Positions 23,879-38,853 of a stretch of DNA of 52,822 bases are shown piece by piece. The stretch spans positions 1-52,822 of the forward strand of contig JAHHGV010000053.1 in NCBI GenBank assembly GCA_019359695.1. The letters are read 5' to 3'. This DNA is from Brasilonema angustatum HA4187-MV1. Lineage in GTDB: Bacteria > Cyanobacteriota > Cyanobacteriia > Cyanobacteriales > Nostocaceae. The translations under genes and the position numbers were made by a program. How positions within the stretch are numbered: the stretch's first letter is position 1; every line of letters begins with the position of its first letter. The notes beneath the pieces were generated by a model. The model was not told the DNA's origin. It did no database searches and was given only the letters and a program-made list of their open reading frames with translations.

Positions 23879-24928
23879 ATGTTTGTTCCAGTAGTTGACC
23901 AAAACAACCGTCCCTTGATGCCAACTACCCCTAGCAGGGCAAAGCGTTGGATTAAGTCAGGTAAAGCTACACCATTTTTTAAAAAAGGAGTATTTTGTGT
24001 TCGGTTGAATCAAGAGCCATCTAATAGAAACACGCAACCAGTAGCGGTTGGAATCGATCCAGGGAGTAAGCGTGAAGGCTACACAGTAAAGTCACAGGCA
24101 CACACTTACTTAAACATTCAAACTCATGCTGTTGATTGGGTGAAAGACCATGTAGAAGTTAGGCGTAACATGCGACGCGCTAGACGGTTTCGCAACACTC
24201 CATGCCGACACAACCGTAAAAATAGACTTGTAAACAAGCAAAAATTACCGCCATCCACTAAAGCCAGATGGCAATGGAAATTACGAGTTTGCAAGTGGTT
24301 GACGCTGATATTCCCTGTCTCTACTTTCGTAGTTGAAGATATTAAAGCAAAAACTTGGAAGGGTGCAAAGAGGTGGAACGTTATGTTTAGTCCACTCGAA
24401 GTTGGTAAAAGATGGTTTTATTTAGAGCTAGAAAGGATTGCTAATCTAGAAACCCGAACTGGCAACGATACTTACGAAATGCGTTTAAGCTTAGGTTTGA
24501 AAAAATCTAAAAACAAGCTATCTAACAAGTTTGATGCTCACTGCGTTGATTCTTGGGTGCTGGCTAATTGGTTTGTAGGTGGACATGCTAAGCCGGAAAA
24601 CACTCAACTACTTGAGATTGTCCCATTAGAATTTCATCGTCGTCAACTTCATCGACTGCAACATGCTGCTGGTCATATTAGGTCTCGATATGGCGGGACA
24701 ATCAGCGCAGGTTTTAAGCGCGGTTCAGTCGTGAAACATCCTAAATTTGGGTTCTGTTACGTGGGTGGTTGGCAAGAATCACCGACTAAAAAAGACCCAG
24801 ACAGAAAAACAATTAGCTTGCACAGTCTTAAAACTGGTAAGCGATTAACACAAAATGCAACTACCAAGGAATGTATTTTCAAATCTTACGGCTCATGGAG
24901 AATATCTACGGCAGTTAAAACTGCCTGA
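23879..24928 (+). CDS. isrB: IsrB: HNH-less IscB-type RNA-guided nickase
   Basis: A 349-residue protein with an N-terminal PLMP domain (RPLMP at residues 11-15), RuvC-I VAVGIDPGSKREGY with Asp60, an arginine-rich bridge helix at 92-116 (EVRRNMRRARRFR), RuvC-II FVVEDIKAKT with Glu153, and RuvC-III KFDAHCVDSWVLANW with Asp219/His221/Asp224. RuvC-II and RuvC-III lie only about 65 residues apart with no HNH domain between them. That separates IsrB from IscB (about 500 residues) and predicts a single-strand nickase guided by omega-RNA. All RuvC acidic residues are present and the frame is intact, so the protein looks active. The C-terminal 120 residues, with KRGSVVKHPKFGFCYVGGW, fit the TAM-interacting region. 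No strong ribosome-binding site precedes the ATG. Confidence 0.88.
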   Translation: MFVPVVDQNNRPLMPTTPSRAKRWIKSGKATPFFKKGVFCVRLNQEPSNRNTQPVAVGIDPGSKREGYTVKSQAHTYLNIQTHAVDWVKDHVEVRRNMRRARRFRNTPCRHNRKNRLVNKQKLPPSTKARWQWKLRVCKWLTLIFPVSTFVVEDIKAKTWKGAKRWNVMFSPLEVGKRWFYLELERIANLETRTGNDTYEMRLSLGLKKSKNKLSNKFDAHCVDSWVLANWFVGGHAKPENTQLLEIVPLEFHRRQLHRLQHAAGHIRSRYGGTISAGFKRGSVVKHPKFGFCYVGGWQESPTKKDPDRKTISLHSLKTGKRLTQNATTKECIFKSYGSWRISTAVKTA

Positions 24929-24940
24929 GTCGTGTTTCCT

Positions 24941-24961
24941 CTCAGCGCTAAAGCGACTGAG
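24941..24961 (+). repeat. Right-end hairpin of the IsrB element
   Basis: CTCAG and CTGAG pair around CGC-TAAA-GCG with a bulged A, 13 bases after the isrB stop codon. A second palindrome, GGCAGTTAAAACTGCC, spans the last isrB codons (24910-24925). The first has the form of an IS605-type right-end hairpin. Confidence 0.65.
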
Positions 24962-24985
24962 TTTCCACACTTTCCACGAGGTTTT

Positions 24986-26278
24986 ATGAAAATTCTGATG
25001 TCCGCCTACTCGTGTGAACCAGGTAAGGGATCTGAACGCGGCGTGGGCTGGAATGTTGTTCGGGAAGTCGCTAAATATCACGAAGTTTGGGTTTTAACTC
25101 GATTTGACGAAAGTGGGGAAGCAATTGAAGCCGAGCTAGCTCGTAACCCAGTGCCTAACTTACACTTCGTATATTTCAATCTTCCCATATTCGGTAGTCT
25201 CTGGCGCTGGGGGTCAAGCGGTGCGATGCAAATCCACTACTATCTTTGGCAGATCCAAGCATACTTTGTAGCCCGCCGTCTACATCGTGAAATCGGCTTT
25301 GACATCATACAGCACGTAACTTTTGTCAAGTATTCAAATCCTAGCTTTCTTTCACTGCTGCCAGTTCCTTTTGTATGGGGACCTGTTGGTGGCGGCGAAT
25401 CAGCGCCAAAAGAGTTTTGGCGAGATTTTAGCTGGCGTGCAAAAACTTACGAAATTATCAGGGACTTTGTTCGCTTTTTAGGGGAACTCGATCCGTTTGT
25501 GCATCTGACTGCTAAAAAAAGTGCTGTCGTTAGCGCTACAACTGAGGATACGGCTAAGCGACTGTATAGAATGGGTGTAAGTAATGTGCAGGTTTTATCT
25601 GCAATAGGGCTGACGAAGGAAGAAATAGCCCATCTTGCTGAGTACGCGATGCCAGACGCTTTGCCAGTAAGGTTTATTAGCATTGGTAGACTGTTGCATT
25701 GGAAAGGGTTTCATCTAGGACTACGTGCTTTCGCCCAGGCAAACCTGCCTGATGCCGAGTACTGGATTTTGGGAGACGGTTCGGAACGCGATCGCCTTCA
25801 CACCCTTGCTCAAGATTTAGGAATTGCTCAACAGGTAAAGTTCTGGGGCGAGCTACCCCGTGAAGAGACTTTGGCAAAACTAGGCGAGTGCCATGTGTTA
25901 GTTCATCCCAGCTTACACGATTCTGGGGGGTTGGTGTGTATGGAGGCAATGGCAACAGGGCGTCCGGTCATTTGTCTGGACTTGGGAGGACCTGCTTTGC
26001 AAGTTACTGAGGAAACTGGCTTCAAAATTTCTGCAAATCATCCGGATCAGGCAGTCGATGACTTGTCTAAAGCAATGATTAGTTTCGCTAAAGATCCAGA
26101 ACTACGCCTACGTATGGGTCAAGCCGGACAGAAGTTAACCACAGAGGCTTTTAGTTGGCAAGTTAAGGGAGAACGTTTGGCTGAGGTTTATGAAGAAATT
26201 GTAGCTCGGAAAGAAAAAATAACGAAGCAGCCTGAATTGCGATTGCGCGGAACGCACACGCCAAAGGCGTATCGCTAA
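24986..26278 (+). CDS. Glycosyltransferase family 4 with repeat-derived C-terminus
   Basis: A 430-residue GT-B enzyme. MKILMSAYSCEPGKGSERGVGW at the N-terminus is typical of a cyanobacterial GT4 subgroup. RFISIGRLLHWKGFHLGLRAF near residue 232 starts the donor domain, and HPSLHDSGGLVCMEAMATGRPVI near 310 has the E-x7-E motif. The open frame extends upstream to 24932 into the IsrB right end, but the ATG at 24986 has GAGG 4-5 bases before it and gives the family N-terminus. The last dozen residues (LRLRGTHTPKAYR) come from a common intergenic repeat word, GCACACGCCAAAGGCGTATCG, so the original stop was probably overwritten. Confidence 0.9.
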   Translation: MKILMSAYSCEPGKGSERGVGWNVVREVAKYHEVWVLTRFDESGEAIEAELARNPVPNLHFVYFNLPIFGSLWRWGSSGAMQIHYYLWQIQAYFVARRLHREIGFDIIQHVTFVKYSNPSFLSLLPVPFVWGPVGGGESAPKEFWRDFSWRAKTYEIIRDFVRFLGELDPFVHLTAKKSAVVSATTEDTAKRLYRMGVSNVQVLSAIGLTKEEIAHLAEYAMPDALPVRFISIGRLLHWKGFHLGLRAFAQANLPDAEYWILGDGSERDRLHTLAQDLGIAQQVKFWGELPREETLAKLGECHVLVHPSLHDSGGLVCMEAMATGRPVICLDLGGPALQVTEETGFKISANHPDQAVDDLSKAMISFAKDPELRLRMGQAGQKLTTEAFSWQVKGERLAEVYEEIVARKEKITKQPELRLRGTHTPKAYR

Positions 26279-26311
26279 GTACATTCAAAGAAAGAAAAAT
26301 AACGCCCTAAT

Positions 26312-27439
26312 ATGCATATCCTAATTGCTGCTTTACACAGACCTACAAAACCAACTGGTGTTTGTAGACACGCTGCAAATCTTGCTAAATGTCTTGCAGA
26401 TAATGACAAAATTAGCAAAATTACTTTGGTGCTAGGAGTATGGCAAAAAGATTACTTTGAAACAGCTTTTTCTCTATCTTCCGAAAAAATTAAATTAGTG
26501 CTCGTCGATATTAAAAATAGCTCAGTTTATAGAAATATGTGGTTTTTATTTGGTCTCCCAAAAATCGCCAAACAACTCAATTCTGATATCGTGCATCTTT
26601 CATTTCCACTTCCCTTCATTCGCTCACTTTTTTCCTGTCCTGTCGTAGCCACTATTCATGACTTGTATCCTTATGAATACCCAGAGAATTTTGGCTATCC
26701 TAATGTTATCTTTAATAAGTTATTCTTGCAAGTATGTATAAATAATAGTGATGGGCTTTCTTGCGTTTCTAAAATCACTTTAAAATGCCTAAAAAAATAT
26801 TTTTATTATATTGAAAATAGCAAACAAAAAACGACTGTAGTTTATAACTACGTAGATTTTGGTAATGTAATTTCAAGAGTTTCAAATAGTATCAAGAATA
26901 GTATTGAAGCTCCGTTCTTGCTCTCTGTTGCTCAACATCGGAAGAATAAAAACCTAGATATATTAATACAAGCATATTCTCTCCTGCTCAAGCAGCATCA
27001 ACTAAAAGATTCAACTCAACTAATTATTGTTGGCAGTTATGGTCCAGAAACAGAGAATATTCAATCTTTAATTCAAGCGCTTGACCTCCAAAAACAGGTC
27101 ATTTTGCTTTCCTCTATTGAAGATGAAGAACTATGCTGGCTATACAAAAACTGCGAGCTTTTCGTTATTCCATCATCTACCGAAGGGTTCTGTTTTCCCT
27201 TGGTGGAAGCATTATCCTTTTCATGTAAGGTAGTTTGTTCAGATATTCCCATCCTTCGAGAAGTTGGCTCCTCAACCTGTCACTACTTTGATTTAAAGCA
27301 TGATCCTGTCAAAAATCTTTCAGAAGGCATGGTTTCTACTCTCTCTCAACCTTCTACCGACACTTCATTCATGGATTCACGCTTTTTGAAACCAAATATA
27401 GCCCAGCAGTATTTAGACTTATACAATTCAATAAGATGA
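26312..27439 (+). CDS. Glycosyltransferase family 4
   Basis: A 375-residue GT-B enzyme. TGVCRHAANLAKCLADND near residue 15 corresponds to the acceptor-binding loop, VVATIHDLYPYEYPENFG near 110 is the HD motif, and FLLSVAQHRKNKNLDILIQAY near 202 starts the donor domain. PSSTEGFCFPLVEALSFSCKVVCSDIP near 287-313 holds the E-x7-E motif. Base composition is more AT-rich than in the flanking glycosyltransferase genes, which may point to a separate origin. It is the last glycosyltransferase before the polymerase/ligase-like gene. The 292 bp that follow are AT-rich and show no feature. Confidence 0.9.
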   Translation: MHILIAALHRPTKPTGVCRHAANLAKCLADNDKISKITLVLGVWQKDYFETAFSLSSEKIKLVLVDIKNSSVYRNMWFLFGLPKIAKQLNSDIVHLSFPLPFIRSLFSCPVVATIHDLYPYEYPENFGYPNVIFNKLFLQVCINNSDGLSCVSKITLKCLKKYFYYIENSKQKTTVVYNYVDFGNVISRVSNSIKNSIEAPFLLSVAQHRKNKNLDILIQAYSLLLKQHQLKDSTQLIIVGSYGPETENIQSLIQALDLQKQVILLSSIEDEELCWLYKNCELFVIPSSTEGFCFPLVEALSFSCKVVCSDIPILREVGSSTCHYFDLKHDPVKNLSEGMVSTLSQPSTDTSFMDSRFLKPNIAQQYLDLYNSIR

Positions 27440-27731
27440 TTGAACTCTTGCACTTGACTTGTTATTGGTGTTTTTGGAGCGTTCCGTACCCCAAAAAAGA
27501 CTAGAGGTAATATCCAAAATGGCTTAGATTTATTTCCTCAATATATTTGAGTATGTAAACAGATAGATACTTCCAAAAAATTAGCTTATTAAATATCTAC
27601 AGTTAATAGCAAGAGTTTCGGGTAAAGTATAATTAATTTCCACTCCTATGTCTATTAATAATAGGGAACACAATTTCAAGATTTTTAGTCTGGTTATATT
27701 TGTAACAAGGTCATTATTTTAAGTTTAAAAT

Positions 27732-29141
27732 ATGTCCGTGAACCGTGATCCATCAATTCGACCAAAGCAGGGAATAATTAGAAATTCAACATTGTTCCTT
27801 CTAGGGTTTGCTACTGCTTTTTTTCCTCGCTTACTGTCAAGCTATGGTGCTCCCTCAGCAATCAATTTTGTTCATTTTCTAGTGATACCAACGGTTGTTG
27901 GAATAGCGATATTTACAACTGAGCTTAAAGATCGTAAGCAGATTGCAATGATTGGAGAACTGGTTTTCGGAATAGGGATACTGCTTGCATGCATGACTGC
28001 CAGTGCTCTGCTCAATCAGGCAGGTATTATAAATGTTTTTGTAGACCTGATATTGCTAGCGGAACCCTTCATATTTTTACTAGCTATAATGGCTGTTCCT
28101 GTAGGCAGTAAAAATATAACAAAAATTAAACATTGGTTATTCGGATTCGCCCTATTTAATTTGCTATTAGCCCTTGCTCAGTCGATTCTCCTCCCTCTTG
28201 GAATTTACCCGAAACCACAAGGAGGAACCATACAAGACAACATTGTAGGTGTGTTTGGGGGAGGAGGAGGAAATGCAGGCAATTATGTGTCTTGCACGAT
28301 TTCGCTATATTTCGCCTTATATTCTTTTAACATTTTCAAGACGGTTCCTCTCTGGGTTAAAATCGCTGGATTATTAGCTACCGTGTATCAAATACAGGTT
28401 TCCGATTCCAAACAAGTGTTTCTCGCCATTATGGGAGGGTGGCTCATTTTAGTTATCGTCAAATCGAAAGATCTGAGAAAATTATTATTGTATCTGATCC
28501 CTTTTATTTTGATAGTTGCCCTATTTTTCTGGGCTATAAAAAATCTAGATCTTGAATTTTTGGCAGCCTATAAAAACTGGCTTGATCGAGATATCTGGGG
28601 ACTAGACGGGGAAGCTGCTCGAATCAAGCTGACAGCATTTCGACTCATTCCCTCTTATTATAAAACGCCATTGAACTGGTTGTTGGGTCTGGGTCCAGGT
28701 CACACAGCCGGTCGTTTAGGAGGATGGGTACTGCGAGATTACGCGAAGATGCTAATGCCTCTAGGTGCTACTGTTCATCCTGTAAGTGCTGATATTTGGC
28801 AGGCCATCAACGCTAGCTACCTTCCGCAAGAGTCTACTGTATACTTCCCACTATTTACATGGGCAGGGATCTGGGGAGATTTAGGATTCGCCGGCTTGGG
28901 AGCCTACTTATACCTTTGCTCTATTGTGTGGCGCAGGATTTGTGCGGATGACTTTAGCAAGTTTTTGCTACTTTCCACTGCCGTTTTTGGGTTGATCCTG
29001 ACTCAGATGGAGGAACCGGGACACATGCTTACGGTAGCGTGTTTGCTCGGTTTACAATGGCATGAAAGGCAGTTGAGAGTGCGATCGCGTTATCATCCCG
29101 CACACCCAACCGATGCAGACACTCGGGTACAAATAAGCTAA
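27732..29141 (+). CDS. O-antigen polymerase/ligase-like membrane protein
   Basis: A 469-residue hydrophobic protein with about 10-12 predicted membrane segments and a large loop around residues 310-370. That loop contains LNWLLGLGPGHTAGRLGGWVLRDYAK, the position of the periplasmic loop in Wzy and WaaL proteins. Such proteins polymerise repeat units or join them to lipid A-core or another acceptor. A glycine run (VFGGGGGNAGNYVS) precedes the sixth segment. Because the locus also has an ABC exporter, ligase rather than polymerase is possible; sequence alone does not separate these. It ends the plus-strand locus. A HIP1 octamer lies near its 3' end. Confidence 0.75.
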   Translation: MSVNRDPSIRPKQGIIRNSTLFLLGFATAFFPRLLSSYGAPSAINFVHFLVIPTVVGIAIFTTELKDRKQIAMIGELVFGIGILLACMTASALLNQAGIINVFVDLILLAEPFIFLLAIMAVPVGSKNITKIKHWLFGFALFNLLLALAQSILLPLGIYPKPQGGTIQDNIVGVFGGGGGNAGNYVSCTISLYFALYSFNIFKTVPLWVKIAGLLATVYQIQVSDSKQVFLAIMGGWLILVIVKSKDLRKLLLYLIPFILIVALFFWAIKNLDLEFLAAYKNWLDRDIWGLDGEAARIKLTAFRLIPSYYKTPLNWLLGLGPGHTAGRLGGWVLRDYAKMLMPLGATVHPVSADIWQAINASYLPQESTVYFPLFTWAGIWGDLGFAGLGAYLYLCSIVWRRICADDFSKFLLLSTAVFGLILTQMEEPGHMLTVACLLGLQWHERQLRVRSRYHPAHPTDADTRVQIS

Positions 29142-29409: not shown

Positions 29410-30552
29410 TTATTTTTCGCCACTCTTCAACCAGTGGAAAAAAGATTGGATGTAAAGAACTTTATCTTGCAAGCGTTCCCTCACCTGAATATGGTAGAGA
29501 GTTCTGCCCATAAATCTATCTGAAGTCCTGACTGGATCAAAAAGTTGATTGTAAACCTGGGGGACGATCGCACTTACCATCGGTTCAGCTTTCACCTGCT
29601 GCCAAATTTCTGTTGGTAAGACAACTCCTAAAAGATCATGTGCCAAGAAAAGCCCCAAAAACAGCATCCGTCTACAGCCAAATGCGCTAGCTTGTTTGAG
29701 GACTTTTTCCCAATTTAGATCCGGGTGTTTGTGAACGAGTGTAGCAATATCGCACAGCCATGATAGCCTTTCCCACATATGTCTAGACCCATGTACGCAT
29801 AAAATTGGTAGCCAATCTTCTAGAGGCAGGTAGGATAGAGTTGTGCCAGCCAATGAGAATGGTTCCAAGTCTTGCCACAAGTGTTTAGGTTCAATGGGAG
29901 TGATGTACTTTGGTGCAATTCGCCAATGAATTTCTAGAAAAATTTCCTTTTCATCATGAATAAAGTCATAGGTATGCTCAGTTTTTGCTTGCAGATAGGC
30001 AATTTCTTCTGCATAAGTCATTTCAATATTGGGTCGATATCCTTGATCAAGCAGTAGTTTCTTAACTGCAAAAATATCTTGCACTTCGACAATAATATCT
30101 AAATCACCAAATTGCCGCAAAGCTACATCACCGTATATTAAGGTAGCCAAAACTGGCCCTTTGTAAGGTACTGCTACAATCCCTTGGTCCTTCAAAAGAT
30201 CCAAGAGTTTGACGAGTTCTCCAGTCAAAAACAAGTTACGCCCAGCGAGCGTGTGGAAAAGGGTGCGGAGTTGATTTAGAGCAAACTCTGGTACGATCTT
30301 AGGACACATGGTGTTGAGGCGAGTGTACAGCAGAGATATTACACCGTGTCCATATGCTGTTTGAATTAGGTATTCCCAGTCAATGTTTTCTTTAACCAAA
30401 GCTTTGATGCGTTCGCCCCCTTGGAGCAGCTCCTCCGGAGCATCGCTAATAGCATCATCAACCTGTGGGCGCACGCAACAAAGAAGTAGCTCTATCTCCA
30501 AACAGATTTTTTTTTCTGAAATCCAGGTATTTTGTTTAGATATAGTTTGCAT
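29410..30552 (-). CDS. Nucleotidyltransferase-fold protein of the lasso-peptide type (NTP_transf_5)
   Basis: A 380-residue protein with the polymerase-beta-like signature VPYKGPVLATLIYGDVALRQ followed by FGDLDIIV near residue 145, where the GD and DLD acidic residues would bind metal. HWRIAPKY and RLSWLCDIATLVHKHPDLNW match the family called 'uncharacterised nucleotidyltransferase'. Homologues sit in lasso clusters of the paeninodin/pseudomycoidin kind, where one is linked to adding sugars to a phosphorylated peptide. It is the last gene of the minus-strand cluster. Near its N-terminus, SDAPEELLQGGER is encoded by a palindromic repeat (GCTCCGGAGGAGC), probably an in-frame insertion. Function here is inferred from context. 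Confidence 0.75.
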   Translation of the reverse strand: MQTISKQNTWISEKKICLEIELLLCCVRPQVDDAISDAPEELLQGGERIKALVKENIDWEYLIQTAYGHGVISLLYTRLNTMCPKIVPEFALNQLRTLFHTLAGRNLFLTGELVKLLDLLKDQGIVAVPYKGPVLATLIYGDVALRQFGDLDIIVEVQDIFAVKKLLLDQGYRPNIEMTYAEEIAYLQAKTEHTYDFIHDEKEIFLEIHWRIAPKYITPIEPKHLWQDLEPFSLAGTTLSYLPLEDWLPILCVHGSRHMWERLSWLCDIATLVHKHPDLNWEKVLKQASAFGCRRMLFLGLFLAHDLLGVVLPTEIWQQVKAEPMVSAIVPQVYNQLFDPVRTSDRFMGRTLYHIQVRERLQDKVLYIQSFFHWLKSGEK

Positions 30553-30644: not shown

Positions 30645-31271
30645 TTATTTTTTGTCTCCCATTATTAGGTAACTGCCATAAATATGCAGATAAGGAAAAT
30701 GATTGCCAAGATACCGTGTCACCTTACCACTGCCACACACTCTAATGTGGCAATACCCCATCATCTTCAGCTTCAACTTCAAGGCATCATGAAAATGCTG
30801 GGAAACATGGCTAGTGTCATCTAAAACGCTTTCTCCACGAATTTTCTTCTTTATGTCTAAAGGATTAGGGGTTGTAAGCATAAATCTGCCGCCAACTTTC
30901 AAAACCCGAAAGATTTCCGCAAGCGTCTTGTCAACGTCCATTGGGTATATGTGTTCAATAAATTCTCCAGCAACAACGACATCGAACGTACGGTCATCAC
31001 AAGGAATTTCTGTTGATAATCCGTAAATGCCTCGTTCATATGCTTGAGGTAGCCTATCCAACCTATCCTTGACGCAATCTAGCCCAAAAATTTGCAGACT
31101 TTTATTGAGACTTTTTAATACTTGACCACCTCTTCCAGTATTGCATCCTATATCAAGTACAGTAAGGATATTCATAGGAAAAAAGCGATAAAACTGGCGG
31201 TAGCGTTTCTCTGTGAAAGGGTCGGTCTCGCTAACGATTTGTTGTGCATTTAATTCTTCATATGTAACCAT
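30645..31271 (-). CDS. Class I SAM-dependent methyltransferase
   Basis: A 208-residue enzyme: LTVLDIGCNTGRGGQVLKSLN near residue 32 is motif I, IFGLDCVKDRLDRLP carries the acidic loop, and FDVVVAGEFIEHIYPMDVD near 100 and LKVGGRFMLTTPNP near 125 complete the SAM site. The ATG at 31271 is preceded by GGAGG with 8 bases spacing. A longer frame from a TTG at 31286 overlaps that site and is less likely. It lies between the phosphoribosyltransferase fusion and the nucleotidyltransferase, so it may methylate the lasso peptide or an attached sugar. It could also belong to the neighbouring polysaccharide locus. Confidence 0.83.
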   Translation of the reverse strand: MVTYEELNAQQIVSETDPFTEKRYRQFYRFFPMNILTVLDIGCNTGRGGQVLKSLNKSLQIFGLDCVKDRLDRLPQAYERGIYGLSTEIPCDDRTFDVVVAGEFIEHIYPMDVDKTLAEIFRVLKVGGRFMLTTPNPLDIKKKIRGESVLDDTSHVSQHFHDALKLKLKMMGYCHIRVCGSGKVTRYLGNHFPYLHIYGSYLIMGDKK

Positions 31272-31424
31272 CTTTACATCCTCCAATTAGTAATTGACAG
31301 CAAACCAGGGGTTTATTTGATTACTTTTAATTTGTCAATCAGTGACATCAGAAAGTAAAGCAATGTCTGATGACAAGCCGCGTCGCGTTTACACATTTGT
31401 AAATTGCGACACACTTTTTCAGAG

Positions 31425-32654
31425 CTAGCGATCGCATTTAACCAGCAAACCCTGAGCGTACAACTCATCTATAAATGTCTCCACATCACACCGGAGTGTG
31501 GTTTCCTCAACGTCGTAGCTGCTTAATACTGACATGACAACTTCTTCTATATCGCCATGCTCAACAACCGCTTGCCAAATATCAGCAGCTACACCAGTCA
31601 AGCAAAAGCTTTCTTGAGTTGCCAAATTACCAATTACAATCTGTCCCTCATACTCTCCAAAGATGACTTGTGATTCTGGTTGAATGAGTCCTTTACTCTC
31701 CGGCTGAATCTGGATAATTGGAGGTTCAGTAGCAGCTTTGAGTCGATTTTTTAAGCAGATTTCTGGAGGAATCAAAAGCCAGCAACCCTCTATCCTTTCA
31801 GTCACAGGGTTCCAAAAAAAGCGATCTGGCTCATTCCAACTGAAACAGACATGGTCAGTTTTTCCAACCCAATAGCGGAAACCGCTGAGGTTGAAGAGCG
31901 AGTGTTTCTGCCAAGCTTGGTAATCATCGCCCAACTCTTCAGGTGCGTAGTCATAAACATCCTGTGCACTCACACAAGCGAGGACGCGAGGTTCACTAGT
32001 TGCGATGCACGAACGTAGCTCCGGATGAGAGTACAGATGGGCAAAAATGACCTTCTGCGGGGAGTGGGATTGCAAAAATCCGTATAACCGCGAACCAGTA
32101 TACACGCAGTCATCCACAACTACCCAAGGTACATCCGGCGATTGAGGTGGCTGCAATTGCTCGCTCGTTAGTCCTAAACAATAAGCCAGCATTCCCAGTA
32201 CAATCTGTCCCCCGCGAGGAATGGCAGTGAAGTGAAAGCGTTTCAGTTCCTGATGACCAAAGCGATCAATTAACTGACAAGCCAAGCGCTGACAATCCAG
32301 TTCAGCTTGACGATAGCTGACATAGCGCATCTGAGCTAGATCCCGATTTAAGTTTTGCAACTGTGTCCCAATTCGGAATTTAGCAACTTCATCAAAGCAG
32401 CCCAACACCGCTAGTACAGGTTGGGGAGTCGGTCGAGCAATCAATACACTTGGAGGCATTTCTGCCCAACTAGGACTGCTGGTAATGGCTTGACTTAACC
32501 TACACAATGCCTCAGCAGGTTCAGCTATTTGGAGTTCACGACTATAGTGAGCTAAAGATTCGGCAGCAATTGGAATGCTATAGATTTTCGGCAACTGAGC
32601 CGCCGGGGAAAGTGATTGTGTTTTACTAGCTTGAGAGAGGGTTTCTTGCCACAT
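31425..32654 (-). CDS. Phosphoribosyltransferase fused to a C-terminal RRE (PqqD-like) domain
   Basis: A two-domain protein of 409 residues. The front part contains a type I PRTase core: FTAIPRGGQIVLGMLAY near residue 143 and the PRPP-binding loop WVVVDDCVYTGSRLYGF near 177-193 (DD-x3-TG). The last 80 residues read GEYEGQIVIGNLATQESFCL, then TGVAADIWQAVVEHGDIEEV and a final IDELYAQGLLV, the PqqD/RiPP recognition element fold. The fusion would bring a leader peptide to a phosphoribosyl-transferring site. I chose the ATG at 32654, just after the exporter stop; an in-frame ATG at 32702 would overlap the exporter gene by 41 bases. I know of no described member with this architecture in a lasso cluster; the substrate is unknown. 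Confidence 0.8.
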   Translation of the reverse strand: MWQETLSQASKTQSLSPAAQLPKIYSIPIAAESLAHYSRELQIAEPAEALCRLSQAITSSPSWAEMPPSVLIARPTPQPVLAVLGCFDEVAKFRIGTQLQNLNRDLAQMRYVSYRQAELDCQRLACQLIDRFGHQELKRFHFTAIPRGGQIVLGMLAYCLGLTSEQLQPPQSPDVPWVVVDDCVYTGSRLYGFLQSHSPQKVIFAHLYSHPELRSCIATSEPRVLACVSAQDVYDYAPEELGDDYQAWQKHSLFNLSGFRYWVGKTDHVCFSWNEPDRFFWNPVTERIEGCWLLIPPEICLKNRLKAATEPPIIQIQPESKGLIQPESQVIFGEYEGQIVIGNLATQESFCLTGVAADIWQAVVEHGDIEEVVMSVLSSYDVEETTLRCDVETFIDELYAQGLLVKCDR

Positions 32655-32661
32655 AGAGTCT

Positions 32662-34479
32662 TCATCGATACTGCTGGGCTTGGGTTTCAAACAAGTGGGC
32701 ATAAGTAGCGCTCAACTGTATCAGTTCGTCATGAGTGCCACTTTCAACAATTGAACCATTTGCCATCACATAAATGCGATCCGCCATTTTGACGGTTGAT
32801 AAGCGATGGCTAATCAGAATGGCAGCTTGATTTTTGATCAGTTGGCGGAACTTTTCAAATACCTCGTATTCAGCCTTAGGGTCCATCGCACTGGTGGGTT
32901 CGTCCAAGACAATCACCTGGGAGTCCCGGAGAAATGCCCGTGCCAATGCGACTTTCTGCCACTGACCAATGCTCAGTTCTTCTCCTAGCTCAAACAATTT
33001 GCCCAGGATGGTGTCATAACCTTGGGGTAAATGAGTAATAACATCATCAGCACCAGAACGACGGGCAGCGGCAATTATGCTTTCCCGGTGCGGTGGTAAG
33101 TCGATGTTGCCTAACCAAATGTTCTCTTGCGCTGTGAAGTGGTACTTGGCATAATCTTGGAAAATTACGCTAATTTCCCGACGTAATTCGGCAATTTTAA
33201 ATTGGCTGAGGTCAATGCCATCAATAGTGATACTTCCAGAGGTTGGAGCGTATAATCTGCATAAGAGTTTAATGAGGCTAGTTTTACCAGAACCGTTTTC
33301 TCCCACCAACGCTACGACTTCCCCAGGTCGAATAATCAAGTTAATATCCTTAAGTGCCTGACGGGTAGTAGTAGAGTATTGGAAACTGACATGATTAAAG
33401 ACGATGCCAGTTTGCATCGGTCGGGGGATAGGCACAGGATGTAAAGGCTCAACCAATTTGGGTTTCAGGTCAAGGAATTCATAAAGGTTAGCGAGAAATA
33501 GGTTGTCTTCATACAAACCAGACACACTACTCAATAGACCTTTAATATCGTTCTGTCCACGTTGCAATGCTTGGTAATACAAGACAAGATCCCCTAGTTT
33601 GAGCACACCTTGGATAGCTTGATTGACGATGAAGGCAAGGACAGCAAACATTAAAATTGCTGCTACAGCTTGAGCAGCAAAGTTAGCCAGAGAACGTGCG
33701 GTGAAAATGGCTAGACTTTCTTTATATATTTGTCGTCGGATACGGAGATACCATTGACTGAAGTAGGAGCCTAAATTAAACAAGCGAATCTCTTTAGCGA
33801 ATTGGTCTGATGTCAGCATCCAAGCTAAGTACATCGACTGCCGTTCTTGAGGTGTGACTTTACGCTGCCAACGGTACAAAACACGAGTGTATTTTACTCT
33901 TACCAGCATAGAGGGGAGACCAGCAACAAATAACATTAAGGCAATTCCCCAATGAAGTGACAGCAGTAAGCCAACCATCGCCAGCAAAGAAATACTATTT
34001 TGTCCCACCTGTGCCAAACGATTCAAGATTTGGGGAGGGCGGTAAGGAGCTTCTTGTTGAGCGCGTTGCAGGGTATCGTAGTATTGGGGATTTTCGTAGT
34101 ATTCTAGATCAGCTTCTATTGATTTAGCCTGGAGAATACCCTGCATATAGTCACTCACCCGCTGCGAGTGGGCGGTATTGACCAGTTCTGTTAAGGAGTT
34201 GCAAAGCGTAGTGACCAGGGTGACTACACCTGCTAGGACAATTAAGAATAATACCTGACCAAAGGCTGCTGCTTTGTCAGCTGTGTTGAGGCTGGCAGCG
34301 ACTGTATCGACGATGAGTTTAGCAAGATAGATTGTTAGTAAAGGTAATATACCTTGGATGACCAAGAGGACGACGCGAGCGATCGTCCAACCTTGACTGC
34401 TTTGCCAAACTAGGCGCAATGCAGGCAAAAAGCGTAATGTGTTCTGGAGTTTTTGTTTTAATATTTTGCCTGCTTGCAT
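32662..34479 (-). CDS. Lasso-peptide ABC exporter (permease-ATPase fusion)
   Basis: A 605-residue half-transporter that probably exports the mature peptide and acts as a homodimer. Residues 25-310 carry about six membrane segments, including LLVIQGILPLLTIYLAKLIVD and VLFLIVLAGVVTLVTTLCNS. The ATPase domain begins near 355 with Walker A VGENGSGKTSLIK near 388, signature LSIGQWQKVALARAF near 504 (LSxGQ form), and Walker B SQVIVLDEPTSAMDP with the catalytic Glu. No N-terminal C39 peptidase is present, consistent with a separate B2 leader peptidase. It follows the kinase gene and leads into the PRTase fusion gene. Confidence 0.9.
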   Translation of the reverse strand: MQAGKILKQKLQNTLRFLPALRLVWQSSQGWTIARVVLLVIQGILPLLTIYLAKLIVDTVAASLNTADKAAAFGQVLFLIVLAGVVTLVTTLCNSLTELVNTAHSQRVSDYMQGILQAKSIEADLEYYENPQYYDTLQRAQQEAPYRPPQILNRLAQVGQNSISLLAMVGLLLSLHWGIALMLFVAGLPSMLVRVKYTRVLYRWQRKVTPQERQSMYLAWMLTSDQFAKEIRLFNLGSYFSQWYLRIRRQIYKESLAIFTARSLANFAAQAVAAILMFAVLAFIVNQAIQGVLKLGDLVLYYQALQRGQNDIKGLLSSVSGLYEDNLFLANLYEFLDLKPKLVEPLHPVPIPRPMQTGIVFNHVSFQYSTTTRQALKDINLIIRPGEVVALVGENGSGKTSLIKLLCRLYAPTSGSITIDGIDLSQFKIAELRREISVIFQDYAKYHFTAQENIWLGNIDLPPHRESIIAAARRSGADDVITHLPQGYDTILGKLFELGEELSIGQWQKVALARAFLRDSQVIVLDEPTSAMDPKAEYEVFEKFRQLIKNQAAILISHRLSTVKMADRIYVMANGSIVESGTHDELIQLSATYAHLFETQAQQYR

Positions 34480-34578: not shown

Positions 34579-35493
34579 TCAGCGAGTATAAACACCCTGT
34601 TTAATATCTTCCTCGATCAACTTCACTAGATCTGGAAGAGCGTCCAAAGAAAATTGCCGTCGCAGTCGGCACACAGATATTTGCTTAACTAGTTTCTGGC
34701 ACTGGTCAAAATGTGTCTTGGTAAAGTCTGGAGTTTGTAATAAATTGACAGCGCGGGAATAGCGCACCAACTCCATGAAGGCATTTGCAGGATGCAACGG
34801 TTCTTCAATGCTATGTTGAGTTCCTTTGTCCAGCACGTAAAGACGCTTTAATGGCAGGGGTTTTTCGCAAAAACCTTCGGAAAAGCGGTAAACCAGCTTT
34901 TCCGTCATTGAGTGTAACAACGGCAAATTTTCCGGAGTATGCCCTAAAGAAGTGGCGGCATCAGACCATAATTTAACCTGGGGAAATCCAGGAAAGACGA
35001 TGGGTTCGTCAGTATCCATCTTGACAGCCATCACATCATCCGTAAAAATACTGTATCCTTTAGTATGGAATGCCTCGGCTAGCGTTGACTTACCCCATCC
35101 AGAATGACCTAAAAATGCTATTGCTCCACCTTTAACAGCAATGCTACTGGCATGAAGAACAAGCAGTCCTCGTTGCCTGAGCAGTACTGCAAGAGCCGGT
35201 CCGAGAATAAAAGGACGCAGCAAATCCTCATCAATTCCTGGGTCTGGTTCGACAACAATCTTGTGTCCAAACTCTACCAAAAACCTTCCCACTGTTGAGT
35301 TTTCTAACTTTAAAAATCCTACTAGCCTTAAGCCACCATCAGCAGCTTCACTTTCAAAGTCGCCAATCTGCCCCTTGGAAATGACTACATCTGGCTGTTG
35401 CCTAGTAATTTCTGGCATTGTTTCACCAGGCATCAATTCAGGAAAAGCCAGTTCTGAGTGAATATAGAGATTATAGGCAGAGTAAGCAAACAC
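34579..35493 (-). CDS. HprK-like kinase of the lasso-peptide type
   Basis: A 304-residue protein related to HPr kinase/phosphorylase. LVLHASSIAVKGGAIAFLGH begins near residue 111, with the P-loop GHSGWGKST at 129-137, and FTDDVMAV at 150-157 matches the acidic motif of HprK. The proteins called ThcoK and PsmK in other lasso clusters have this layout and phosphorylate the C-terminal Ser of the precursor. Here the predicted precursor ends in Cys-Ile rather than Ser, so the target must be another hydroxyl residue or the protein has a different job. It follows the precursor gene after a 288-bp spacer with two hairpins and a MITE-like element. Confidence 0.85.
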   Translation of the reverse strand: MFAYSAYNLYIHSELAFPELMPGETMPEITRQQPDVVISKGQIGDFESEAADGGLRLVGFLKLENSTVGRFLVEFGHKIVVEPDPGIDEDLLRPFILGPALAVLLRQRGLLVLHASSIAVKGGAIAFLGHSGWGKSTLAEAFHTKGYSIFTDDVMAVKMDTDEPIVFPGFPQVKLWSDAATSLGHTPENLPLLHSMTEKLVYRFSEGFCEKPLPLKRLYVLDKGTQHSIEEPLHPANAFMELVRYSRAVNLLQTPDFTKTHFDQCQKLVKQISVCRLRRQFSLDALPDLVKLIEEDIKQGVYTR

Positions 35494-35780: not shown

Positions 35781-35963
35781 TTAGATACATTGCCCGTTCT
35801 TTTTGACACAACCATCAAGTGAACCAGTACCACTTTGAAGAGGAACACTAGCCATTGGCGGTCCAAAATAGGTATCTTTTGCACTAGAGTCAAAGCTAAA
35901 AGCTGTGATCTTGCTCACGTTACCGTGGTTGGTAAGTCTAGGCGCTGCGTAAGTTTTTTTCAT
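35781..35963 (-). CDS. Lasso peptide precursor
   Basis: A 60-residue peptide. The leader has the RRE-binding pattern Y-x2-P-x-L-x3-G: KKTYAAPRLTNHGNVSKIT, with Tyr5, Pro8, Leu10 and Gly14, and the conserved penultimate leader Thr20. Cleavage after Ala21 would give a 39-residue core beginning FSFDSSAKD, in which Asp30 (core position 9) can close a 9-residue macrolactam ring with the N-terminus; Asp25 at position 4 is too close. The tail is long, with Pro-Pro, Gly-rich segments and two Cys (GCVKKNGQCI) that could form a disulfide. The ATG at 35963 is preceded by AGGA at 9 bases; a TTG nine bases earlier is also in frame. A phenylalanine at core position 1 is unusual. Confidence 0.88.
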   Translation of the reverse strand: MKKTYAAPRLTNHGNVSKITAFSFDSSAKDTYFGPPMASVPLQSGTGSLDGCVKKNGQCI

Positions 35964-36066
35964 TGTTTTCAATCCTGTTGTGAAGTATTGTGTATTTGCG
36001 TAGATGCACCCAATTTTAATATGAGTACGTATAAAGATTGAGCGTAATTTATACTTCTAACTAATT

Positions 36067-38103
36067 CTATTGTTTGAGTTGGGTGTGATCTAGCCAAAAA
36101 GCCAACATGGCTACTTGCCAGAACACTAAGTCTGTTACGCTTTCAGAGGACTGAATGTCCTTTATAGATATTAATTCTTCATAGATTTTACGTAGGGCTT
36201 TGACATCCACATAATCAGTGATCGAATGTAAATGATTTTGCATCACTCGATCCAAATGCTCCCGATTATGTTCCAATAGTCCATACAAAAAGCTGGAACT
36301 CATATCGCCTTTGCTGCGACGCCACTGCACTTGTTCCGGTAGAACATTTGACATGGCACGACGCATAATAAAGCGAGACCAACTTTGGCGAAACTTTTGT
36401 TCAGGTGGTAGAGACAAACAGAATTCAATCAACCGCTTATCCATAAAAGGGTGGCGCGTCTCAATGGAAAATGCTGCGGAATACTGGTCTGAGACTTCTA
36501 GAGCTTGTGTCAATACGCCCGAAGTTAGACCCCGCCAGTGCTGTTCTCTTTCGGTAAGGGGTTGATTAGACTGTGAATTCTTGAGAACTTGAATACGCTT
36601 TTTTAGATTGATATGCTTGGCAAATTTACGCTTGACGATTTGGTTGCGGTCATTATTTGCCGGTTGATTGTGTCCGCGCAGCAATTGCCAAGCCTGTCGT
36701 ATTGGTTGAGGAAGCAAAGGCTTAAAGCCGTGGTGCACGAAAAGCGATCGCCGTGAGACGTTAAAGTATTGCAGGATCTGATTGATTTGTCTGGCAAAAG
36801 TAACCCATCTCCCAGAGCGTGCTAGTTCTTCGAGATACGTAAAAGCATAGTATTGAAGAATTTTACGTGGTGAAACACTAGCAAGCTTGTGTAAATCATC
36901 GACTTCCTTTGCGAAAGTTGACCATTGTCCTTTTCTGACCAATTCAGTAAGATAAGCCTCGCCATGAGACAAGGTATTATCACCGTCAAAGCCGTCTAAG
37001 ACAACGCGAACCCCCTCTTTGTGAGTTGCTTCATTCAATCCCCAAACCAAAAAATGTGTAGGTGCAGGAATCGCTCCATCGTGATATTGGAAAATTTTAT
37101 CTAAGTTTGATAAGGGACCTTGTTGGTCGGCATGAACATAATGGGGAATCATGCCACCCTGGGCAAGAACAGCTTCAATAAACGGGCGCTCATCGCATTC
37201 GGTAACTGCATCAAAGATATTTGAGAAGGTGTGCAATGAGCGATTATTGCCTTCTTGCATCAGTAGTTGCTGTGCCGTACAGGTGACAGAGGACGAGTCT
37301 AGCCCACCACTAAGATGCGAACCGACTGGAAAGGCACTACGTAGACGACACCGGACTGCCTCGGTAAATATTTCCCGTAATGCTGAAGCATATTCCTCAT
37401 CAGAACCCAACCGCAACTCACGGCAAGGATCTAGTGACCAATAGGAACCAATTTGGATTCCTTTGGCACTCAACGTCATGTAACTGGCAGGAGGAAGTCG
37501 GTATATGTGCTGATAAAATGTAATAGACTTATCGTTGAAGATTGCTGCTAAATAATCAGCGACTTTCACTTCATTAAGTTGGTGTGGTATCTCCTGCAAA
37601 CACAATAAAGCTTTAATCTCAGAGCCAAAAGCAAAAATTCGACCTGTTTGATAGTAATAGTATAAAGGTTTGACGCCCATATGGTCGCGAGCGCAAAAAA
37701 GCATTTGATTTCGCTTATCCCAAATGGCAAACGCAAAGTCTCCTAAGAGGTGTTCTGGGCAGGACTCACCCCATTTTTCGTAAGCCGCCAATATTAACTG
37801 GCTATCCGTGATTTTTTCGGATGGGCACTTATCAAATTGTAACACATGGATAAGTTCATCCCGGTTATCTATTCGACAATCTGCTGTAATGGCTAAATCA
37901 CCTGTCTGGTTAATCAATGGCAGTTTTTCTAGCAGAGATTCCGGTGTTGTCCACAGCATCCGATGCCCTAAACCGACAGATCCGTCAACCCAGATGTCTG
38001 CACCATCATGTCCCCGGTGAGCAAGAATATCGACCATCCGTCCCAAATCTTCTCGATCTACAGGGCGATTATCAAGGTAGTAAATTCCCATAATGCCGCT
38101 CAT
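36067..38103 (-). CDS. Lasso peptide macrolactam synthetase (asparagine-synthetase-like, C protein)
   Basis: A 678-residue homologue of asparagine synthetase B. It is expected to adenylate the acidic side chain of the core and form the isopeptide bond with the core N-terminus. The N-terminal glutaminase-like domain begins MSGIMGIYYLDNRPVDREDL: the catalytic Cys2 of true glutaminases is Ser here, as expected for a cyclase that needs no ammonia. The synthetase domain has the PP-loop VGSHLSGGLDSSSV near 255, VVLDGFDGDNTLSHG near 375, and FSIETRHPFMDKRLIEF near 560. It overlaps the B2 gene by 4 bases and precedes the precursor gene by 94 bp. Confidence 0.93.
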   Translation of the reverse strand: MSGIMGIYYLDNRPVDREDLGRMVDILAHRGHDGADIWVDGSVGLGHRMLWTTPESLLEKLPLINQTGDLAITADCRIDNRDELIHVLQFDKCPSEKITDSQLILAAYEKWGESCPEHLLGDFAFAIWDKRNQMLFCARDHMGVKPLYYYYQTGRIFAFGSEIKALLCLQEIPHQLNEVKVADYLAAIFNDKSITFYQHIYRLPPASYMTLSAKGIQIGSYWSLDPCRELRLGSDEEYASALREIFTEAVRCRLRSAFPVGSHLSGGLDSSSVTCTAQQLLMQEGNNRSLHTFSNIFDAVTECDERPFIEAVLAQGGMIPHYVHADQQGPLSNLDKIFQYHDGAIPAPTHFLVWGLNEATHKEGVRVVLDGFDGDNTLSHGEAYLTELVRKGQWSTFAKEVDDLHKLASVSPRKILQYYAFTYLEELARSGRWVTFARQINQILQYFNVSRRSLFVHHGFKPLLPQPIRQAWQLLRGHNQPANNDRNQIVKRKFAKHINLKKRIQVLKNSQSNQPLTEREQHWRGLTSGVLTQALEVSDQYSAAFSIETRHPFMDKRLIEFCLSLPPEQKFRQSWSRFIMRRAMSNVLPEQVQWRRSKGDMSSSFLYGLLEHNREHLDRVMQNHLHSITDYVDVKALRKIYEELISIKDIQSSESVTDLVFWQVAMLAFWLDHTQLKQ

Positions 38104-38555
38104 AGCTTGACTCCTTCGAGAGATGGTAGTGGGATAAAGCGTGAGAGATCCGGAAGATTGCCGATCGCAACCCGTCCCTGATACTCAATCCAAGCATGAG
38201 CCTCTAATTGTCCTCCCTGTTCTTTAGCAACACCTATACGTAGTTCAGAGGAGTAATGATAGCGGTTCATGAGAAATTGAGTCGTCAAGGCGCGAGCCAG
38301 ACACTTAACACCACCAGGCATATAGCGTGTTGCTACGTTAACAGCCCAAACTATCTTGCCTACAGAAATTTGACTTTTATGAGTCTCAAATGGAAAACGA
38401 ATATTTTGCTTATTTATCTTTTGCAAGAGATTTAGTAAATTCCCAAAGGCGAGGAAAAACAGCCCTAACCTAATTGCTCCCAGCAGGATAAAAGTGATTG
38501 CTAAAAAATAGCGATCGCTCCCAGAAAGTTTCAGAAAGTTACGCAACCGTTTCAT
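38100..38555 (-). CDS. Lasso peptide leader peptidase (B2, transglutaminase-like)
   Basis: A 151-residue cysteine protease homologue. After one or two N-terminal hydrophobic stretches (YFLAITFILLGAIRLGLFFL at 16-35) it has YMPGGVKCLARALTTQFL near 77-94 with the catalytic Cys, and LEAHAWIEYQGRVAIGN near 116 with the catalytic His. This is the pattern of lasso B2 proteins that cut the leader. It overlaps the end of the B1 gene by 17 bp and the start of the C gene by 4 bp, so translation is coupled. It should act with the separate RRE protein encoded just upstream. Confidence 0.92.
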   Translation of the reverse strand: MKRLRNFLKLSGSDRYFLAITFILLGAIRLGLFFLAFGNLLNLLQKINKQNIRFPFETHKSQISVGKIVWAVNVATRYMPGGVKCLARALTTQFLMNRYHYSSELRIGVAKEQGGQLEAHAWIEYQGRVAIGNLPDLSRFIPLPSLEGVKL

Positions 38556-38853
38556 TGTTAACTTTAACCAGATCTACAGCTTTCAGTTCTTCCAGCAGTG
38601 CCAAAATATCTCTCATGCAAACTTTTGGTTCTACTTCATATTCTTCCAAAAGCGTCTGTTTAATATCATTCACCACCTTGGGTTGTTGAATGATATTCCA
38701 AATTCTTGCTCCTATTTCATTTAGTCCGTGGTAAACTCCCGATTTGAGATTCAGAATGACTGCTTCGCCACCAAGATCAGAAGATATCTGCTCTACAGCA
38801 GCTACTACTATCGACGACTCTGAGATCTTATAGTTCAATGATTTTGAGGTCAT
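38539..38853 (-). CDS. Lasso peptide RiPP recognition element (B1, PqqD family)
   Basis: A 104-residue PqqD-like protein. SDLGGEAVILNLKSGVYHGL near residue 25 forms the expected beta strands, NEIGARIWNIIQQPKVVNDI near 45 is the first helix, and LLEEYEVEPKVCMRDILALLEELKAVDLV completes the winged-helix fold. In lasso systems this protein grips the YxxP leader motif and delivers the precursor to B2 and C. It is the first gene of the minus-strand operon, so the promoter should lie in the AT-rich stretch at 38854-39130; AAGGAA occurs about 14 bases before the ATG. Confidence 0.9.
   Translation of the reverse strand: MTSKSLNYKISESSIVVAAVEQISSDLGGEAVILNLKSGVYHGLNEIGARIWNIIQQPKVVNDIKQTLLEEYEVEPKVCMRDILALLEELKAVDLVKVNNETVA

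Follow-up and report, generated by a model that had tools for sequence, protein, structure and literature searches.

The window, that is, the whole 52,822-nucleotide stretch of DNA that was analyzed, contained a lasso peptide cluster in which one gene encoded a phosphoribosyltransferase (PRTase) domain, as predicted by a structural model, joined to a C-terminal RiPP recognition element (RRE). The features of the cluster and of the fusion protein are listed in Table 1. The cluster met the criteria for a lasso cluster: the precursor, the leader peptidase B2, and the cyclase scored above their NF cut-offs, and B1 was recognized via PF05402. The initial annotation had placed the fusion in a lasso cluster with a separate RRE, and this held, with B1 being the separate RRE. 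The true start of the precursor was probably the ATG at 35963, and the start of its core was inferred because of the Thr at position -2. In the case of the fusion, the initial annotation had given a span of 31425-32654. The open reading frame (ORF) held; position 32654 was its second ATG (Met17), and the first ATG was at 32702. The two starts were about equally plausible, the 32654 start because several homologues start near that point.

Two other genes in the cluster were considered as partners of the fusion. The methyltransferase was dropped as a recurrent partner, with no homologue called in any other locus of the related-locus scan described below. The NTP_transf_5 protein, which belongs to the family (PF14907) that we take to include PsmN, was rejected as an obligate partner because it was missing within 9 kb in 3 of the 14 loci with 9 kb on both sides. 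Elsewhere in the window, positions 23879-24928 (+) encoded an RRXRR protein (PF14239, 123 bits). IscB/IsrB proteins begin with a region of this kind.

Table 1. Features of the lasso cluster and of the PRTase-RRE fusion in the window
Feature	Position	Strand	Details
B1, stand-alone RRE	38539..38853	-	PqqD, 67 bits; NF033536, 78 bits, just below the cut-off of 80
B2, leader peptidase	38100..38555	-	NF033537, 110 bits (cut-off, 33)
C, lasso macrolactam cyclase	36067..38103	-	NF033535, 1063 bits (cut-off, 525)
Lasso precursor	35781..35972	-	NF033528, 40 bits (cut-off, 33); YxxP leader; inferred core FSFDSSAKDTYFGPPMASVPLQSGTGSLDGCVKKNGQCI with internal G-S
HprK/PEPCK-fold kinase	34579..35493	-	His-Lys-Asp-Asp set H114, K135, D152, D153
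ABC exporter, MsbA-like	32662..34479	-	Overlaps at its end with the first PRTase start codon
PRTase-RRE fusion ORF	31425..32702	-	425 aa from the first ATG
RRE domain of the fusion	31428..31685	-	Residues about 340-425; PqqD Pfam match, model, TbiB1/TfuB1 fold matches, pocket mapping
PPi loop PRGG	Residues 162-165 of PRTase-RRE
PRPP loop VVVDDCVYTGSR	Residues 194-205 of PRTase-RRE
Motif W278-x-G280...F287-x-W289..P292	PRTase-RRE
Leader-pocket positions of the fused RRE	F366, L368, V371, I375, V392, Y396, V398, D406, F410, L414, L419
SAM methyltransferase	30645..31286	-
NTP_transf_5 protein (PF14907)	29410..30552	-	207 bits; nucleotidyltransferase-like, of a kind frequent in kinase-type lasso clusters

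The Pfam PqqD profile (PF05402) matched residues 359-420 of the fusion with 41.2 bits (cut-off, 23.4). The Pribosyltran profile (PF00156) matched residues 194-231 with 18.7 bits, and because this was below the gathering score of 26.3, the PRTase assignment was weak from sequence alone. A search of PDB sequences with the fusion matched only the RRE half. An AlphaFold2 model of the fusion was built from a 27-row alignment that consisted of the window protein and proteins from 26 of the 36 homologous loci; L037, L038, L047, L058, L062, L064, and L066-L069 were left out as near-copies, cut sequences, or sequences with unclear starts. The model had a mean pLDDT of 89.4 and a pTM of 0.83. Residues 340-425 were modeled as strands followed by three helices, which is the winged helix of an RRE, and Foldseek searches against the PDB matched this part to TbiB1 (with leader; TM by target, 0.83-0.89) and TfuB1 (0.88). 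The middle part was matched to XGPRT with a TM by target of 0.51-0.60 and an rmsd of mostly 5-9 Å. Hence, the PRTase assignment of the middle region stood on a predicted structure whose match was modest.

These results showed that the gene is a real fusion of an XGPRT-fold PRTase and a C-terminal RRE within a complete lasso cluster, with both folds being predicted by the model. The initial annotation had described a PRTase and a C-terminal PqqD/RRE-like domain in one chain, and this held on the basis of Pfam for the RRE and predicted structure for both domains. It had also proposed that the idea would fail if the C-terminal domain did not fold as a PqqD-type winged helix. That check was passed, as an RRE winged helix was predicted and the leader-contact residues were kept.

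Among the 27 aligned sequences, in which identity fell as low as 30%, residues P162, R163, G164, and G165 of the PPi loop, D197, D198, and G203 of the PRPP loop, and R205, which follows the PRPP loop, were invariant. W278, G280, F287, W289, P292, and the RRE tryptophan W376 were also invariant. Thus, the sequence features of a class I PRTase (the acidic pair and [ST]G of the PRPP loop, and the PPi loop) were present in 27 of 27 sequences, and the Rossmann-like fold criterion was met by the modest XGPRT match. The flexible loop II that lies between the PPi and PRPP loops was the criterion not met. Specifically, the spacing from PRGG to DD was 29-39 residues (median, 31) compared to 48 in E. coli gpt, and the model had no strand between the helix at residues 164-176 and the strand at residues 193-200; we therefore concluded that the mobile loop II was absent.

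The fold of E. coli gpt (XGPRT) resembled that of the fusion, and the PPi and PRPP loops of the two proteins could be aligned. The differences were in the regions that surround these loops. The second Asp of the gpt motif DDLVDTG (DDxxDTG; Asp92) is what we take to be the purine contact in 6-oxopurine PRTases. At this position, the 27 fusions had Leu (17), Tyr (4), Phe (4), or Ile (2), and the purine-contacting Asp criterion for a 6-oxopurine PRTase (XGPRT/HGPRT) was not met. In addition to lacking the loop II region and this Asp, the fusion differed from XGPRT in having an invariant Arg after the PRPP loop and an added RRE. We infer from the sequence and the model that the PRTase domain is no ordinary purine enzyme, and that an open active site without a purine contact would suit a large acceptor. 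It is possible that the domain is degenerate or non-catalytic, given the missing loop II stretch and the score under the Pfam cut-off.

The leader contacts seen in crystals of PbaB1 and LppB are described in PMC13381572. We transferred these contacts via a HMMER alignment of 9x90_B, and the offset, which was calculated by hand, was consistent with every PbaB1 residue named in that paper. LppB D70 forms a hydrogen bond with the leader Tyr, and its position was occupied by Asp or Glu in 26 of the 27 fused RREs and in every one of the 22 stand-alone B1s. Seven of the ten hydrophobic contact positions were hydrophobic in 27 of 27 fused RREs, and the other three were hydrophobic in 26, 25, and 20 of 27 (the domain mean was 50%). 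The Phe/Leu divider position was occupied by Phe or Leu in 25 of 27 fused RREs, and the PbaB1 E75 position was not kept (Thr, Arg, and others). Both the fold criterion for an RRE (three strands and three helices) and the leader-contact criterion were met. As inferred from the model and residue conservation, and without binding data, the fused RRE looked able to read a YxxP leader.

The fused RRE shared its fold and leader-pocket residues with stand-alone lasso B1 RREs (TbiB1, TfuB1, and PbaB1), but it was joined to an enzyme and was placed on its own side of a tree branch. In this tree, the fused RREs formed one side of a 98/99-supported branch, and the 22 stand-alone B1 rows were on the other. 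The bootstrap had not settled and the deep forks were unresolved; a single origin of the fused RRE was consistent with the tree and is possible.

A scan for related loci, in which one genome per species was used and the match list was cut at 80 stretches, yielded at least 37 loci, 36 of which had a PRTase ORF (the exception was L070). Brasilonema sp. CT11 and Halomonas ventosae are among the organisms with a related cluster. Based on record labels, the loci were from Cyanobacteria (several genera), Chloroflexota, Gemmatimonadota, Halomonas, Litchfieldella, Spirochaetes, Nitrospirae, Rhodothermaceae, Thermoanaerobaculia, Trueperaceae, and one archaeal MAG. The last of these (L045), a PRTase lasso cluster, was in a MAG labeled Methanospirillaceae archaeon, and a binning error is possible. 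A cyclase or B2 gene was found within 6 kb of the PRTase gene in 26 of 36 loci, and in 18 of the 20 loci whose contigs extended 3 kb or more to either side. Ten loci lacked both genes. Two of them (L056 and L060) had a lasso-type precursor, and five (L037, L038, L058, L066, and L068) were on short or cut contigs, although in L068 a stretch of 10 kb on one side held neither a cyclase nor B2. The remaining loci were L042 and L043 (Thermosynechococcaceae-type), which had only a kinase and a PRTase, and L064; L043 and L064 had no lasso genes despite long contigs. The genomes of the L042 and L043 pairs carried a cyclase, a kinase, and a precursor elsewhere (L097 and L088). In both pairs, a CHAT-domain protein was directly upstream of the kinase (L032 1-1212, equivalent to L042, and L033 8068-9762, equivalent to L043); the L033 copy matched PF12770 with 226 bits, and the L032 copy was identified by resemblance. 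In L064 (8567-10462, Chloroflexi), a different HprK-like ORF lay on the strand opposite to the PRTase-RRE, and 18.8 kb of sequence yielded no lasso gene calls.

A search for B2 in seven PRTase genomes was positive in four (G000, G080, G317, and G388) and found none in G242 (82% complete), G392 (the L064 genome), or G394 (the L059 genome); L059 had a cyclase beside the PRTase despite this result. In larger samples, scoring was limited to the first 4-11 candidates of each genome, so the genome counts are lower bounds. A search with the PRTase profile only was positive in at least 12 of 201 Halomonadaceae genomes, and a cyclase was near the PRTase in 12 of 12 (11 fetched loci and L054). The PRTase profile was positive in at least 2 of 200 Gemmatimonadota genomes and at least 1 of 251 Chloroflexota genomes, with the center genome included in each case. 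The sole new contig from these two samples was 4 kb long; its kinase overlapped the PRTase end, and there was no room for further genes. Thus, in the sampled genomes, the PRTase-RRE fusion was rare but widespread. The initial annotation would have been refuted if homologues of the fusion were mostly away from RiPP clusters, and this was not so, as 18 of 20 scan loci and 12 of 12 Halomonadaceae had lasso genes. No relatives of the fusion were found in searches of viral contigs and plasmids, and a phage or plasmid origin was without support because these searches were empty.

The modeled kinase had an HprK/PEPCK fold, and the four residues of its His-Lys-Asp-Asp set were invariant in a 29-row alignment. 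This set is reported for lasso kinases (review PMC9266682), and in this respect the cluster resembled those of paeninodin-type phosphorylated lasso peptides, whose criterion of an HprK-like kinase with His-Lys-Asp-Asp was met. A kinase was found within 3 kb of the PRTase in 27 of 36 scan loci, and in 19 of the 20 loci with contig flanks of 3 kb or more. In eight of the nine loci without a nearby kinase, the contig ended near the PRTase on the usual kinase side; the ninth was L064. Similar results were observed in the Halomonadaceae, in which the genomes with kinase-profile E values of 4.3e-99 or better were precisely the 12 with a PRTase; the best value among the other 189 genomes was 8.9e-46. 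Because the profile was built partly from such kinases, the score gap is informative and the E value is not. In one genome (G455), the kinase and the PRTase were about 23 kb apart.

The reverse relationship was different. In a sample of 388 cyanobacterial genomes, for which few first-look candidates were scored per genome, a kinase was present in at least 72 genomes and a full-length PRTase in 4, all of which were among the 72. Among 40 kinase loci that were retrieved in addition to the PRTase loci, none matched the PRTase profile, and no PRTase without any kinase was seen on long contigs. Thus, kinase clusters without a PRTase were common in the sampled genomes, and a PRTase without a kinase was not seen on a long contig. 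This one-way co-occurrence gave indirect support to the suggestion in the initial annotation that the PRTase uses a phosphate placed by the kinase; the chemistry is inferred.

We also compared the core peptides. To find precursors, we searched for the leader pattern and not for the core, and cores from L036, L040, and L060 were added by eye from translations. Matches without lasso-like features were removed by eye, and a simple script rule defined where each ring ended. This gave 29 cores from 25 of the 37 scan loci and the window. The L036 core was cut by a masked stretch, which left 28 visible ends. No precursor was found in L037, L038, L042, L043, L049, L051, L052, L058, L064, L066, or L068, and L070 did not contribute because it lacked a PRTase ORF. 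All 29 PRTase-associated cores had a Gly-Ser or Gly-Thr after the ring (tail-shuffle expectation, 15.1). A C-terminal Ser, the acceptor that is the paeninodin-type criterion, was absent from all 28 cores whose end was visible. In 12 of 12 further Halomonad cores, which were examined by eye in seven loci, the same Gly-Ser/Thr and lack of a C-terminal Ser were observed; no precursor was found in one other Halomonad locus (L130).

The control set consisted of 40 regions from 110 kinase places (four of the 110 were PRTase loci), and 35 of the regions, all cyanobacterial, yielded 43 cores. L076 and L082 were dropped because no core was found, L086 and L094 as near-copies of L084 and L090, and L103, whose two leader-like ORFs each have a C-terminal Ser, because no cyclase was found. 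L104 and L110 each had a pair of near-identical cores, of which only one was kept. L096 and L105 were kept though no cyclase was called, L088 and L097 were from the genomes of the orphan kinase-PRTase pairs, and PRTase-free second clusters in L035, L039, and L040 were placed in neither core set. Gly-Ser/Thr was found in 29 of the 43 control cores (expected, 18.4) and a C-terminal Ser in 13 (expected, 3.9). The PRTase-associated and control cores differed with Fisher values of 0.0004 for Gly-Ser/Thr and 0.001 for C-terminal Ser (computed with 0/29). The Fisher and shuffle values were not corrected for kinship, and since the 29 cores are related, they overstate independence; moreover, the controls were all cyanobacterial, whereas the PRTase-associated cores spanned phyla.

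The idea that the Gly-Ser motif is specific to PRTase clusters was rejected, since 29 of 43 control cores also carried it. From the core counts, we infer that Gly-Ser/Thr is a kinase-type motif that may mark the kinase alone, and that the PRTase accompanies only that type here. By inspection, no other potential phosphoribosyl acceptor outside the ring was common to all 29 cores. The PRTase-free cyanobacterial kinase clusters (L072-L111) had mainly two kinds of core, one with an internal Gly-Ser (often G-S-x-D) and one with a C-terminal Ser, and it is possible that these represent two acceptor classes for one kinase family. The results on the PRTase also suggest that an internal Gly-Ser/Thr accepts the phosphate in a large group of lasso peptides.

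On balance, we lean toward the interpretation that the fusion is an RRE-guided tailoring enzyme that phosphoribosylates the lasso precursor in series with the kinase; catalysis, the peptide acceptor, the acceptor atom, and the order of steps are inferred. The initial annotation had read the architecture as suggesting phosphoribosylation of a peptide or of a kinase-placed phosphate, and this was supported, with the reaction itself being inferred. In this interpretation, the RRE of the fusion would dock on the precursor's YxxP leader in the manner of B1, and the kinase would phosphorylate the Gly-Ser/Thr residue of the core first, which is the order that we favor. The XGPRT-fold domain would then use PRPP to place a 5-phosphoribosyl group on the core, either at the conserved Gly-Ser/Thr or beside it, with the phosphate (or, less likely, the hydroxyl) of the Ser/Thr acting as the nucleophile on C1 of PRPP. 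Finally, B2 and the cyclase would fold the lasso and the ABC protein would export it. We consider it as likely as not that the acceptor is the kinase-made phosphate on the Gly-Ser/Thr; the hydroxyl of the same residue is also possible. Both are inferences.

Parts of this scheme have precedents. As in the pseudomycoidin and paeninodin clusters (PadeK, ThcoK, and PsmK), the window cluster had an HprK-like kinase, a lasso B1, B2, and cyclase, and an exporter; it also had a nucleotidyltransferase-like protein, comparable to the nucleotidyltransferase homologue of pseudomycoidin, PsmN, which puts a hexose on kinase-made phosphoserine (review PMC9266682). It differed from these clusters in having the additional PRTase-RRE and internal Gly-Ser/Thr cores, with 0 of 28 ending in Ser. 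The LPP family (LppK, LppB, and LppN; PMC13381572) was also similar, as LppK is an HprK-like RiPP kinase that acts on an internal Ser, a discrete RRE reads a YxxP leader, and an NTP transferase, an MsbA-like exporter, and glycosyltransferase-rich loci are present. However, LPP clusters have a signal-peptidase-like protease, whereas the window cluster has a lasso cyclase and B2. In the case of the decaprenyl-phosphate phosphoribosyltransferase Rv3806c, a phosphate acceptor attacks PRPP (PMC10994848), but this enzyme has a UbiA-like membrane fold and is non-homologous, so it is a chemical precedent only. Enzymes of the BtrL/Neo17 type ribosylate an aminoglycoside hydroxyl using PRPP.

Other explanations should be considered. 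It is possible that the PRTase modifies the precursor at a site independent of the kinase-made phosphate (another Ser/Thr hydroxyl, Asn, His, Lys, or Arg) and that the kinase targets a different residue or the ribose. RRE targeting is compatible with any core residue, many cores hold further Ser/Thr residues, and BtrL/Neo17 is a precedent for transfer from PRPP to a hydroxyl. However, the 29 tails shared no out-of-ring acceptor besides Gly-Ser/Thr, and an independent site would not need the kinase to be present wherever the PRTase is seen on long contigs.

We regard as unlikely a non-catalytic PRTase fold that would bind PRPP or a nucleotide and serve as a regulator of, or a scaffold for, the kinase. 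Regulatory roles exist for some PRTase folds. The missing loop II, a ppGpp-bound protein (5vog) among the Foldseek matches, and the usual presence of the kinase within 3 kb (27 of 36 loci) are in keeping with this explanation, but no variation was seen in the PPi loop, the acidic pair, or the W-x-G...F-x-W motif across all 27 sequences at identities down to 30%, which seems to be beyond the needs of ligand sensing. Even less likely is an enzyme that acts on a small molecule (a purine or another base) and has a vestigial RRE. The fold was nearest to XGPRT, and L043 and L064 were without lasso genes on long contigs, but none of the 27 sequences kept the purine-contact Asp, which was replaced by Leu, Tyr, Phe, or Ile, and the RRE retained its leader pocket.

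The interpretation that we favor, phosphoribosylation of the precursor in series with the kinase, also has a bolder form, which we consider less likely than not: a conserved route to a Ser/Thr-O-phospho-(1)-ribose-5-phosphate pendant on lasso peptides. The kinase would set the phosphate, the RRE-guided PRTase would couple ribose-5-phosphate from PRPP, and the NTP_transf_5 protein, where present, would extend the pendant, perhaps to a nucleotide- or sugar-phosphodiester. If true, this would be, to our knowledge, the first case in which a class I PRTase phosphoribosylates a peptide, and an ADP-ribose-like mark would be built from the bottom up.

In the open-access main texts that we searched (supplementary files and subscription journals were outside the scope), we found no RiPP pathway that uses a PRTase, which agrees with the initial annotation, in which no described example was known, and nothing that combines a phosphoribosyltransferase with an RRE. 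A term search for "phosphoribosyl" was negative in a 2026 review (PMC13352647), two RRE surveys (PMC12710340 and PMC7470986), and PMC13381572. One paper retrieved with lasso peptide and phosphoribosyltransferase (PMC11705953) concerned only HisZ in the sections bearing on it. PRPP is a central metabolite, yet no RiPP enzyme was found described as its user. A leader-guided PRTase conserved together with a kinase in several phyla would extend the known peptide modifications by a new class. It would also account for a set of unannotated proteins that carry a PqqD-type domain, and it would provide a means of coupling ribose phosphates to peptides.

We searched the 25 largest groups of unassigned ORFs for a phosphatase or another third enzyme that recurs, and none emerged. 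These groups were mainly polysaccharide genes, with a few unidentified ones and, in six Halomonad loci, chromosomal neighbors that these loci have in common. Polysaccharide-type genes (glycosyltransferases, a sugar transferase, a Wzy-like protein, and UDP-glucose dehydrogenase, named partly by resemblance) adjoined many PRTase lasso clusters. They were found in 15 of 38 loci (window 24932-29141, L034, L036, L038-L041, L048, L050, L054, L055, L057, L059, L063, and L065) and in 5 of 11 Halomonad loci. LPP clusters have also been described in loci of this type (PMC13381572). An enrichment of exopolysaccharide genes relative to the controls (7 of 40) was not accepted because the control loci were shorter and the comparison was unfair. 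Four loci (L047, L048, L061, and L063) had two cyclase genes close to one PRTase. In one Halomonad locus (L136 9465-10675), the PRTase was in two overlapping frames and may be broken or mis-sequenced. Finally, a PRTase lasso cluster with a Nodosilinea label (L041) contained a protein-arginine-methyltransferase-like protein with PrmA and PRMT_C matches (L031 10948-12093).
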